Shown one piece after another: positions 22,858 to 62,832 of a DNA stretch of 64,000 nucleotides (its first letter is position 1; each line of letters opens with the position of its first letter). Under the pieces are notes generated by a model that ran no database searches, had not been told where the DNA came from, and worked only from the letters and a program-made list of their open reading frames with translations. The stretch is from the NCBI GenBank assembly GCA_016786465.1, contig JAEUWC010000030.1:124001-188000 (forward strand). The letters run 5' to 3'. Source of the stretch: Bdellovibrionales bacterium. Lineage in GTDB: Bacteria; Bdellovibrionota; UBA1018. A program made the position numbers and the translations under genes.

Positions 22858-22941
22858 TGTGCAGTTGTCGGAACCGTGTCGGAAGTTGTCTTACGGGCTG
22901 GTCCGCGGCGTCTCTGTTCAGTTGTCGGAACTGTGTCGGAA
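22858..22941 (+). repeat. Two tandem plus-oriented repeat units
   Basis: Units at 22858-22885 and 22914-22941. Each has two TGTCGGAA boxes with an 11-bp period (22866-22873 and 22877-22884 in the first). Consensus core GTTGTCGGAAGTGTGTCGG, with C or CC variants between the boxes. Confidence 0.75.
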
Positions 22942-22950
22942 GATTAAACA

Positions 22951-23033
22951 TTCCGACATACTTCCGACAACTGAACAGGCAGCGCTCCGACGACAGCCGG
23001 ATCCAATTCCGACATACTTCCGACTAGTTCAGG
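22951..23033 (-). repeat. Two tandem minus-oriented repeat units
   Basis: Units at 22951-22978 and 23007-23033, 56 bp apart. The outer one is degenerate at one end (CTAGTTCAGG in place of AACTGAACAGG). Confidence 0.75.
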
Positions 23034-59269: not shown

Positions 59270-59896
59270 GTGCCTACTTTATTGCGGTTTTTGAAGACAG
59301 GAACGCCTCTGTTTTTGGTTCTGGGCTTGGCTTCGGCCTCTCTGACCTTTCAGGGTTGCGGTCGTGGGAAGGGAAAGATTCCAGGCTTGGACCGGATTTC
59401 GGTGCAGGTTTTGGAAGGACGCCTTTACGCCAGCTTCGTCGCAAAAAAACTTCAATGGGATGTGGGCATCACCTTTCCGATCCCGGGACTTCCGGACAGC
59501 AGCTTTGCGGTTGCGCCCGATTTTGCGTCCAACGGAACCCTGTTTCAGATCCAAGTTCCCTTGGCGTCGCTGGCGCGTGCGGCGGCTCCGGGCGTTCTTC
59601 CTTGGCTAGGACTTCCAGATGGACGTGCGCTTCCGGATGTTTCTTATGGTGTTCTTCCGCGCTGGGATTTCCACGTCGGTGCGCTTCGAATCTCCGCTTA
59701 TCTTTCACCCGAAGTTTTCGGGATCTACATTCCTCTGCCGTTGAATCTTCCGGTGGGAACGTCTTTACCTTTCTATCTTTCATTTCCAGTGACGGATGAA
59801 AAAGGAAATCGCTTGGGCAAGGGCTATGCTGTGCCACCCGGCCCCTCAGGCGAAGCAGGAGTCCTTCTTCTGCTAACAGTGGGTGGCGGAAAGTGA
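59270..59896 (+). CDS. Lipoprotein, first of a tandem paralogous pair
   Basis: Start GTG 59270, fixed by aggag 5 bp upstream. 208 residues with lipobox TFQGC (Cys30), then basic GRGKGKIPG. The mature domain alternates hydrophobic strands with repeated Pro/Leu: LQWDVGITFPIPGLPDSSFA, VAPDFASNGTLFQI, LPDGRALPDVSYGVLP, VFGIYIPLPLNLPVG. It shares this plan with the next gene (about 35% by eye). Unknown family, probably an outer-membrane-anchored beta domain. Confidence 0.78.
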   Translation: MPTLLRFLKTGTPLFLVLGLASASLTFQGCGRGKGKIPGLDRISVQVLEGRLYASFVAKKLQWDVGITFPIPGLPDSSFAVAPDFASNGTLFQIQVPLASLARAAAPGVLPWLGLPDGRALPDVSYGVLPRWDFHVGALRISAYLSPEVFGIYIPLPLNLPVGTSLPFYLSFPVTDEKGNRLGKGYAVPPGPSGEAGVLLLLTVGGGK

Positions 59897-59900
59897 ACGT

Positions 59901-60536
59901 ATGAATACTCAATTGAAGAGGACTTCCGGTTGGATCGTCGCCCTAACCGCTGCGCTGATGGTGAGCGGTTGCGGACGAGGCTCCAACAAGAACGTTAAAA
60001 TCGATGGCGTTGACGGCCCTCGCGTGAACTTCGTCGATAACAAGTTCACGATGGCGTTGACCTTGACCCAAGTGCAGTTTGATGTGGGAACACGAATTCC
60101 GATTCCGAAACTTCCGAACAGTTATGTGGAAGTCGGTCCGGATTTCGCGACCAACGGGCTTCTGATCAGCATCGGAATTGATGCTCGGGACCTGGTGGCG
60201 ATGGCCGGCGGACAAGCCGCGCTTTTGGATCCTACGACACTTCCTGGCGGCAGACCGCTTCCAGGTGTGGCGGCTGGAGAACTTCCAGGCTTGGCCGTTC
60301 AGGTTCCTAAGTGGAACGACATCGTTTTCTATCTGGGGACGGCTTTGTTCGGCGTCTTCGTGCCGGTCAACCTTCCTTGGAAGGACTACATGGGAACGTT
60401 CCGTTTCTATGACGGCGCGGGCGATCGCATCGGAAATCTTTCGATCGTTGGCCAAGACTCGAACGGCCGCAACAGCGGCGTGCTTCTGCTGATCAACCTT
60501 GCTGGCAAGGTCGGTAAGCTCGCGGGTCTGCAGTAA
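59901..60536 (+). CDS. Lipoprotein, second of a tandem paralogous pair
   Basis: Start ATG 59901 behind ggcggaaag; 211 residues with lipobox MVSGC (Cys24). Same order of motifs as the preceding gene: VQFDVGTRIPIPKLPNSYVE, VGPDFATNGLLISI, LPGGRPLPGVAAGELP, LFGVFVPVNLP and SGVLLLINLAG. Spacing of 4 bp and shared motifs indicate an old tandem duplication. Two hairpins follow, the second a good intrinsic terminator. Confidence 0.78.
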   Translation: MNTQLKRTSGWIVALTAALMVSGCGRGSNKNVKIDGVDGPRVNFVDNKFTMALTLTQVQFDVGTRIPIPKLPNSYVEVGPDFATNGLLISIGIDARDLVAMAGGQAALLDPTTLPGGRPLPGVAAGELPGLAVQVPKWNDIVFYLGTALFGVFVPVNLPWKDYMGTFRFYDGAGDRIGNLSIVGQDSNGRNSGVLLLINLAGKVGKLAGLQ

Positions 60537-60592: not shown

Positions 60593-60625
60593 GGCCTCGC
60601 CGAAGCTTTCGGCGGGGCCATTTTT
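60593..60625 (+). terminator. Intrinsic terminator
   Basis: 12-bp stem GGCCTCGCCGAA / TTCGGCGGGGCC (one G-T pair) with a 3-nt loop, followed by ATTTTTG. Second of two consecutive terminators. Confidence 0.85.
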
Positions 60626-60634
60626 GTTTCGGGG

Positions 60635-61234
60635 TCATCCTGTTCCGTTGTCGGAAGTGTGTCGGGTTTCGTTTGGCCCCAGGCCCTTGGGTCCTCCTGT
60701 GCAGTTGTCGGAAGTGTGTCGGGTTTCGCCGCGATTCGGCCCATTCGGAGCCATTTGCGCCCCCTGCTTACTCAGTTCAACCAGTTCTTTTTCGTGCATT
60801 TTCATGACGCCATAAAGTCGGTCCCAAACGCCGGGGTGGGGAAGATGCTTTCCCCGTTCCAGATCGCTGATATGCCCGCGATTGATCTGGGTCATTTGCG
60901 ACAAAGTTTTTTGAGACCATCCCAGCTTTTGCCGAAGAATCCGCAGCCGATATCCCCAGATTTTCCGATCGTGGTCCTCGCCAAGGTCGATCGCGTCCGG
61001 ATGCGAAGTCCGGACATGAAGGTGGCTACGAAGCTGAAACGGCCGTTCCAGATGGCAGATGTCGATTTGTTCCAGGCTGTACAAAGTTTTCCGTTCAAGT
61101 GCCTTGAAAAAGGTCAGAAGAATCGTTTTTCGGACTTCGGGTGTGACTGAAGCAAAGGTTGTGAGCTTAACATCCAGACGAAATCCCCGCCACGAACTGA
61201 CTTGGCCAACCGTATACGTTTCCCTTGGGCTCAT
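60635..61234 (-). CDS. XRE-type helix-turn-helix protein with repeat-encoded C-terminus
   Basis: 199 residues. A TGA lies directly before ATG 61234, fixing the earliest start; Shine-Dalgarno is poor. Residues 1-95 are of unknown type (TILLTFFKALERKTLYSLEQ, HLHVRTSHPD). Residues about 96-150 are an HTH_3/Cro-type DNA-binding domain: LRILRQKLGWSQKTLSQMTQ, INRGHISDLERGKHLPHPGV. Residues 169-199 are encoded by the two left-end repeat units and contain RHTSDN twice (172-177 and 191-196), the stop lying one base beyond the outer unit. It is the only gene inside the element and may bind the repeats. No nuclease or transposase motif is seen; the N-terminal part could be a remnant. Confidence 0.7.
   Translation of the reverse strand: MSPRETYTVGQVSSWRGFRLDVKLTTFASVTPEVRKTILLTFFKALERKTLYSLEQIDICHLERPFQLRSHLHVRTSHPDAIDLGEDHDRKIWGYRLRILRQKLGWSQKTLSQMTQINRGHISDLERGKHLPHPGVWDRLYGVMKMHEKELVELSKQGAQMAPNGPNRGETRHTSDNCTGGPKGLGPNETRHTSDNGTG
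60639..60723 (+). repeat. Two tandem plus-oriented repeat units, 57-bp period
   Basis: Both contain GTTGTCGGAAGTGTGTCGG preceded by CCTGTTCC or CCTGTGCA. The period is 19 codons, so on the minus strand they encode two in-frame copies of RHTSDN in the C-terminus of the HTH protein. Confidence 0.8.
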
Positions 61235-61303
61235 TCAGGAAGAGCGTCAGCAGCAAACGTTCCAATGGTTGTGGGTCTTTCGACAACCTACGATCGCACT
61301 TAC

Positions 61304-61400
61304 TTCCGACACACTTCCGACAACTGAACAGAGTGCCCAGGACCCCCGCGCCCGCCAAAGTCCGACACACTTCCGACAACTGAACAGAGTGCCCAGAACC
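61304..61400 (-). repeat. Two tandem minus-oriented repeat units, 57-bp period
   Basis: Units 61304-61331 and 61361-61387 read CCGACACACTTCCGACAACT on the plus strand. Similarity extends beyond the core through GAACAGAGTGCCCAG to about 61345 and 61400. They lie between the HTH gene and the 3' end of the protoporphyrinogen oxidase gene. Confidence 0.8.
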
Positions 61401-61407
61401 TCCGTAC

Positions 61408-62832
61408 CTAGAATCGCGTTTCGATCATTCCGCGTAACGAAATCTGACCGGTGGAATTCGAAAACCAAACCCGTCCGGGCTTGGCGAAGAACCCCTGGCT
61501 TGCCGCATCCCAAGCAGCGCGCAGGTCATCACCATAAACTGGCAGCGCGCGCGGCCACGACGTCGGATGGGTTTCCCAGCCATCGTTCGCAGGGCCGTCG
61601 TCCGAAAGCCGACAGCCCCAGCTTTGCAAAACCGCCTGAAATTCACGGCGGACCAGGTCGTCCGGTAAAGGCGCGGACGAAGAAAACATCATCGTGTAAG
61701 ACGATCGCGCATCTGGTGTCGCCGACGAAATCGCATCCTTCGCCGGCGATCGAGTATCCTTCGCCGGCGCCGACGATTCGCCGACGCGGCCTTCCCACGA
61801 ACTGGAATTAAAAAGAATTCCAAGACATTGGCGGCCTTTTTCAGCTTCGGGAATCAGGATTCCCACACCCTTGGGCGCGCCCCGACGAAAAACCGAATCC
61901 TTTACAAAAACAGTGATCGTCGTCAGCGGCACTTGCTTCACGCGGCGAAGTGACGCAGAAAAAGTGGGTTCGATCCCTTCTAAAGTTTCTATCCGCGCCA
62001 CGATTTCACAAAGGGCGGGTGCCGGTAATGCAAAGACCCAGTTCGCATCGCTAGAATTTGGGCCTAACCGCGTATTCAAAACCCCAGGATCCAATTCCTG
62101 ACCCAGAAAAATTTCACAGCGTCCGGACGCGCGAAGTTTCGCTTCCAGCGCTCGCACCAAAGATTCCATCCCCAGCCTTGGGGCAACCATCTTGGATCGA
62201 GCACGTCGATCCAACGCAGCAGGCACTTTCACGCGCCGAGTGATCTTTTCCCCAATCCAGCGACTGGCCAAGGAATGCCCCGGCAGGCCCACCAGGCGGG
62301 GAAAAGTCATTTCTACGTTCAGGTCATCGGGTCGGGCTCCGTAAATTCCCCGCAAAAACGGCACTAAAAGCAAATCCGTCGCCCGCCGACCCAAATGCCG
62401 ATCGCCCCAAGCGCGAAGATTCCCGGGCGCACGAAATCGCGCCAGCAAAACTCGAAACAAAAGACCCAAGAACCCAATCGGCCCAAGCAGACCAAAAATC
62501 CCACCGGGCAGCGAACGCGCGCGCCCACGCCAAAGTACAAAACGCCCCTTGCATCCCGGACGGACTTGCACGCAGTCCACTGCCAGTTCTTCGCAAAACT
62601 TCAAAACGTCGGGGCTTGCCAAAAATGAATGGGCCGCTGTTTCGGCCAGACGCATGGATGGAAGGCCAGCGTCCAAAACGCGCGTCTGAATCAGTCCACC
62701 CAGGCGGTTCGATTTTTCATAGATCTGGACTGTTTGACCGGCCTGAACCAAACGATAGGCCGCGATCAAACCCGCGATTCCTCCGCCAATCACGATGGAC
62801 TTCTTTCGGGTCGGATCCAGTTTGCCGATCAT
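61408..62832 (-). CDS. hemY: Protoporphyrinogen oxidase (FAD-dependent)
   Basis: 474 residues. N-terminal FAD dinucleotide fold (SIVIGGGIAGLIAAYRLVQA, YEKSNRLGGLIQT), membrane-binding and substrate regions typical of the HemY/PPO family (FLRGIYGARPDDLNVEMTFP, GMESLVRALEAKLR), and a C-terminal FAD motif-like region (ALPVYGDDLRAAWDAASQGF). An internal Ser/Ala/Asp repeat (PAKDTRSPAKDAISSATPDA) is an unusual low-complexity insert near 375-395. Converts protoporphyrinogen IX to protoporphyrin IX with oxygen. Lies 21 bp after hemN on the same strand; its 3' end abuts the repeat element. Confidence 0.88.
   Translation of the reverse strand: MIGKLDPTRKKSIVIGGGIAGLIAAYRLVQAGQTVQIYEKSNRLGGLIQTRVLDAGLPSMRLAETAAHSFLASPDVLKFCEELAVDCVQVRPGCKGRFVLWRGRARSLPGGIFGLLGPIGFLGLLFRVLLARFRAPGNLRAWGDRHLGRRATDLLLVPFLRGIYGARPDDLNVEMTFPRLVGLPGHSLASRWIGEKITRRVKVPAALDRRARSKMVAPRLGMESLVRALEAKLRASGRCEIFLGQELDPGVLNTRLGPNSSDANWVFALPAPALCEIVARIETLEGIEPTFSASLRRVKQVPLTTITVFVKDSVFRRGAPKGVGILIPEAEKGRQCLGILFNSSSWEGRVGESSAPAKDTRSPAKDAISSATPDARSSYTMMFSSSAPLPDDLVRREFQAVLQSWGCRLSDDGPANDGWETHPTSWPRALPVYGDDLRAAWDAASQGFFAKPGRVWFSNSTGQISLRGMIETRF

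Follow-up and report, generated by a model that had tools for sequence, protein, structure and literature searches.

Where dispersed bacterial repeats have previously been known to have a dedicated protein, that protein has been an HUH transposase. REPtrons consist of a gene, encoding a RAYT (TnpA-REP), flanked by repeats that recur elsewhere as inverted doublets at the 3' ends of genes, and each such gene is paired with its own repeat family (PMC3116915, PMC3733652). In TIRtrons, one gene lies between terminal inverted repeats that are unrelated in sequence across species and sometimes overlap the gene end; their dimeric families are moderately abundant, and the TIRYT genes encode HUH tyrosine transposases (PMC3733652). 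BIME/REP sequences, some of them in tandem arrays, are likewise intergenic 3'-end repeats, but they are bound by general host proteins (IHF or gyrase) and have no dedicated, co-varying gene inside a copy. The locus described here has much of this anatomy around a gene for an XRE-type helix-turn-helix (HTH) protein. Its HTH domain is, by sequence, that of the XRE/Cro-CI repressors (434 and P22 repressors, SinR and restriction control proteins); unlike theirs, the protein carries an unannotated N-terminal domain, and its candidate sites lie on both sides of the gene and, as dispersed pairs, away from promoters.

The element occupies positions 60632–61404 of a 64,000-nucleotide stretch of contig JAEUWC010000030.1 from a Bdellovibrionales bacterium, referred to throughout as the window. 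It is probably the copy that carries the gene in a dispersed repeat family which is specific to this genome and has its own XRE protein, predicted to bind the repeats. The features of this element, its neighbours and a second element in the same window are as follows:

22864–22882, plus strand: gene-less second element, left arm, core 1
22921–22939, plus strand: gene-less second element, left arm, core 2 (57-bp period)
22953–22971, minus strand: gene-less second element, right arm, core 1
23009–23027, minus strand: gene-less second element, right arm, core 2 (56-bp period)
59883–60536, plus strand: lipoprotein-like left neighbour, syntenic in genome G001
60632–60671, plus strand: left arm, outer unit (core 60647–60665)
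60635–61234, minus strand: XRE-family protein gene, 199 aa (N-terminal domain of ~80 residues followed by the XRE HTH)
60689–60728, plus strand: left arm, inner unit (core 60704–60722)
60812–60952, minus strand: HTH_31/HTH_3 domain, aa 95–141 (recognition helix INRGHISD, with Asp at the position of 434 Gln33)
61305–61348, minus strand: right arm, inner unit (core 61306–61324), upstream of the XRE gene start
61361–61404, minus strand: right arm, outer unit (core 61362–61380), ending 3 bp from the hemG stop
61408–62832, minus strand: HemG-like oxidase, right neighbour, syntenic in G001

The four cores of the gene-bearing element are exact copies of GTTGTCGGAAGTGTGTCGG, which is made of two TGTCGG hexamers at 11-bp spacing; 100 shuffles of the sequence gave no copy. 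Each core sits in a longer unit, the units being 40 nt long and 93% alike in the left arm and 44 nt long and 95% alike in the right. This confirms a preliminary description of this DNA, which had reported two cores facing two others around one minus-strand gene; the period is 57 bp in the left arm and 56 bp in the right. The last ~35 codons of the XRE gene are read from the left-arm repeats. Just outside the left arm, positions 60594–60630 resemble an intrinsic terminator by eye (a GC-rich hairpin, then a T-run), although a simple terminator scan listed none; this hairpin and the hemG stop bound the cassette.

The enclosed protein matches HTH_31 and HTH_3 (E = 1e-9 and 7e-8; 38.9 and 32.8 bits, above the curated cut-offs of 27 and 23), in agreement with its earlier assignment as XRE-type. 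It falls below every curated NCBIfam cut-off, and comparisons with PHROGs, PADLOC and the PDB found similarity in the HTH only; an AlphaFold prediction from the single sequence had a pLDDT of 36.5. Judged by sequence, it belongs to an XRE protein family without a name, defined by the N-terminal domain of about 80 residues and the XRE HTH. Neither the window protein nor nine relatives had a Pfam match to Y1_Tnp, and no conserved His-x-His or Tyr columns were found across 25 aligned family members; the element contains no transposase, as had been observed before. Of the functions suggested earlier for the locus, an immunity or addiction-like cassette found no support, as the element is a single gene with no toxin partner, HipB/MqsA-type NCBIfam models score the window protein at 18–26 bits against cut-offs of 62–79, and both these and the PADLOC matches are confined to the HTH. 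A self-regulated locus would fit, given the position of the right arm upstream of the XRE start.

A search of the window genome (3.63 Mb) revealed 11 clusters of the repeat, comprising ten two-armed convergent clusters (a plus arm, then a minus arm) and one half element, L015. The gene-less 2+2 cluster at 22864–23027 and nine more genome clusters were absent from the preliminary description, and the 2+2 layout of the repeat-bounded unit recurs outside the locus where it was noticed. Only one of the 11 clusters, that at 60632–61404, has the XRE gene inside it. The core follows the pattern TGTCGG-N5-TGTCGG, and the full unit, CTGTKCAGYTGTCGGAASTNTGTCGGR (27 bp), repeats at 56–58-bp steps. Spacers inside one arm are near copies of one another. 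Between arms, the cores are 87–90% identical whereas the spacers are only 38% identical, which suggests that the core is constrained or homogenised and that the remainder drifts. At nine two-armed loci, one arm carries an A-type core (the fifth base of N5 is G, mostly AACTG) and the other a B-type core (mostly AAGTC), and only the gene-bearing window copy has identical cores in both arms. With their spacers, its left arm is 82% alike over 96 bp to the right (B) arm of element L010 and its right arm 88% alike over 93 bp to the left (A) arm of L016. The systematic A/B difference in the window genome, set against the near-identical arms found in relatives, counts against the explanation that we prefer. 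Within one arm of L010 (L010:3846–4265, G000 contig 1), 11-bp units TGTCGGATCCG/TGTCGGACTTG are expanded up to 10 tandem copies; the expansion occurs three times, and the 57-bp step to the following unit is preserved.

Several other identities for the repeats were considered and rejected. An RNA element was set aside, as the window has no Rfam match and no supported consensus fold was found within the repeat unit, and the spacer hairpins seen on initial folding were discarded for lack of conservation. The near-identical spacers within an arm and the absence of cas genes in view do not fit a CRISPR-like array. A phage or plasmid origin was also rejected, as the gene-less element had no matches and the IMG/VR tandem-pattern matches are unrelated repeats. 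Related viral contigs in IMG/VR (L075, L077–L083) have a common block that holds repeated TGTCGGACAGG units at one conserved place. No such clusters were found in 368 other genomes of the phylum, where the sole weak match, L140, looks like a chance match within coding DNA. In other phyla (Dehalococcoidia, Alicyclobacillus and others), the matches are to minisatellites of 11 bp that lack the 57-bp layout. Eight sites in the Dehalococcoidia sequence OY282365.1 (L061, L064–L067, L070, L072 and L073) carry 10/11-bp TGTCGGATAAG-like minisatellites and have flanking motifs in common (CCTGAAGCGA ... CTCAGCTACGA), forming a separate dispersed family.

The window protein has weak homologues in other genera, and these were found enclosed by inverted repeats of their own. 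With a profile built from 11 members, the family comprised 24 full-length members beyond that of the window, in 20 other genomes whose assemblies are drafts, some fragmentary. All lie within the same order; the distribution is patchy, and some genomes have two or three members. When flank was scored against flank, enclosing inverted repeats were significant at 18 of the 24 testable family loci, the window locus being counted among these. The 37 controls comprised HTH-only XRE genes, hemG loci and others; three of them scored positive, including a Y1_Tnp gene. The enclosing repeats are 480–733 bp apart. They were undetected at the other six testable loci, among which L180 and L188 have a convergent repeat pair on the upstream side of the gene in place of an enclosing one. 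The doubled ends of the window element recur in relatives, with two units facing three at 53–55-bp periods in L058 and three 54-bp units facing one in L050/L177. In most relatives an arm is one unit of 20–40 bp, whereas in the window genome it is a short tandem of 27-bp units; palindromic arms are present only in some relatives (L046, L050). Elsewhere in the phylum, a 40–42-nt inverted repeat (L200:1254–1293 / 1806–1847) encloses an XRE gene with a different N-terminus, and the association of repeats with XRE genes may extend past this order.

Dispersal was assessed by concatenating all repeats and running them against 14 relatives. Nearly all matches in a genome were to the repeat type belonging to that genome, and they lay at between several and a dozen further places; G042 and G044, which belong to the same genus, have one repeat type in common. 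Where a genome has two or three genes (G025, G044, G028), the number of repeat types matches the number of genes, and G044 has three protein-repeat pairs. Among the gene-less loci read in relatives, 38 of 40 are inward-facing pairs; those of G036 have unrelated interiors and flanks. In G036 (p = 0.0002) and G037 (p = 0.002), the two arms of a locus have private variants in common, a pattern expected from palindrome correction or hairpin constraint; G042 shows no such sharing (p = 0.43).

An orthologous site lacking the element exists in G001, a genome of the same family but a different genus. The gene order DEAD-box gene, lipo1, lipo2, hemG, hemW is retained there, yet hemG and lipo2 are 40 bp apart, where the window has 871 bp, and the site contains neither the XRE gene nor the repeats. 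The L017 element of the window genome (173 bp) lies between divergent genes in a gap of ~236 bp, which is ~66 bp in G001. Insertion was seen only in comparisons across genera, and relatives do not uniformly carry the repeats at this position. The earlier suggestion of a non-autonomous mobile element stands insofar as the unit is repeat-bounded, recurs and has an empty orthologous site; mobility itself found no support, with no target-site duplications visible at the inspected elements of the window genome or of relatives.

The 434 repressor contacts DNA through Gln28, Gln29 and Gln33. When the LERG motif of the family is aligned to 434 LENG, position 33 is taken by the residue that precedes [LIV]E, and at this position a correspondence with the repeats, spotted by eye ahead of the statistics, was found. 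Asp33 goes with GTCGG repeats in four of four members and nowhere else (Fisher p = 0.0002), and six of the eight members with His, Arg or Lys33 have TGTG[GC], a motif present in no other member (p = 0.0007); the exceptions are L187 (Arg with ATGTCGC) and L182 (Lys without TGTG). Of the 103 protein columns scanned, that of residue 33 was the best correlate of repeat similarity (Mantel p = 0.005; partial Mantel, corrected for overall protein identity, p = 0.007), with a weak correlation (r about 0.2). In the congeneric genomes G049 and G053 (L180, L188), the gene is at an orthologous site, yet the repeats are unrelated and residue 33 differs. On these sequence comparisons, the XRE protein appears tuned to the repeat of its own genome.

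Each copy of such a family consists of two inward-facing arms, one copy per repeat family enclosing the XRE gene and the others being gene-less, intergenic and mostly at gene 3' ends. We propose that the XRE protein most likely binds these arms in dimeric form by means of its recognition helix, with the TGTCGG half-sites of the window elements one helical turn apart. It may repress its own gene via the arm upstream of the gene start, and may occupy or bridge the dispersed pairs. Repeat and protein change jointly, both between species and between paralogues of one genome. Since nothing in the protein looks catalytic, spread would depend on an enzyme of the host or one acting in trans, or on copying of hairpins.

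Alternatively, the locus could be a known REPtron or TIRtron, in which REPs or terminal inverted repeats are mobilised in trans by a RAYT (an HUH transposase) and the XRE gene is a passenger; we regard this as unlikely. The layout does match that of RAYT and TIRYT genes and their dispersed dimers, including a gene flanked by its own repeats, intergenic inverted doublets that lie mostly between convergent or co-directional genes, and the pairing of each gene with its own repeat family (PMC3733652, PMC3116915). The window genome also has five Y1_Tnp genes, and half element L015:4072–4144 lies 517 bp upstream of one of them, a RAYT-like gene (L015:4662–5318). However, these repeats were not found at the remaining four Y1_Tnp loci, none of 65 loci, family or gene-less, had a Y1_Tnp gene nearby, and across the order the repeats enclose an XRE gene and not a RAYT. 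An HUH motif and a catalytic Tyr are both missing from the protein, and no enzyme of the kind found in TIRtrons is recognisable. Nor is each repeat a tagged palindrome: there is no general GTAG/CGTC tag (among relatives, GTAG occurs in G036 alone), and the arms are mostly direct half-sites with no palindrome of their own in most genomes. Copies number roughly 5–12 rather than hundreds. Covariation of residue and repeat would, moreover, be unexpected of a passenger gene. Other Y1_Tnp genes have repeats of different kinds, namely a TIRtron-like 42-nt inverted repeat (79%) around one (L135:1151–1192 / 1910–1951), and 19-bp (CAGCCCCGCGCCTTCGAAY) and 33-bp tandem repeats adjoining two more RAYT-like genes (L136:2018–2131 and L138:2123–2188).

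An ordinary transcription factor that controls a small regulon through the pairs as operators, and itself through the arms around its gene, would agree with the HTH match to classic repressors, with the arm upstream of the gene start and with the co-evolution expected of a factor and its operators. It is nevertheless quite improbable, as the gene-less pairs lie at gene 3' ends, and the neighbours at 19 unambiguous loci in relatives are convergent in 10 cases, co-directional in nine and divergent in none. The clusters of the window genome are flanked by unrelated housekeeping genes, the other genera examined showed no pair at the orthologous positions, and operators do not usually enclose the 3' end of the regulator gene. 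A miniature inverted-repeat transposon (IS- or Tn7-like) that has multi-site ends and has captured a gene, which the inward-facing ends with several sites each and the distinct A and B arms of the window genome might suggest, is very improbable, given that the target-site duplication of insertion sequences and MITEs is missing from the inspected elements, that G036 copies have unrelated interiors, that the only rve gene of the window genome is an IS3 without these repeats, and that the gene family stays constant while the repeat sequence varies between genera. In the two transposase families searched in that genome, rve and Y1_Tnp, no ends matching the repeats were found.

No description of an XRE-REP link or of the core sequences was found in the open-access literature, and earlier accounts outside it are possible. 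More tentatively, and as somewhat less likely than not, we would suggest a new class of repeat system: selfish or domesticated inward-facing pairs that co-evolve with a non-enzymatic XRE protein through a residue-to-base code and spread without a transposase of their own. REP-like anatomy is found here across many genera of a single order in combination with a plain repressor-like protein. Either a repeat family can be maintained by a protein without catalytic activity, or the repeats are of use to the cell and the protein reads them. The roughly two dozen protein-repeat pairs, with three in G044 and two at one orthologous site, offer naturally occurring material for studying XRE recognition, and the presumed reader makes testable the question of why REP-like pairs lie between convergent genes.
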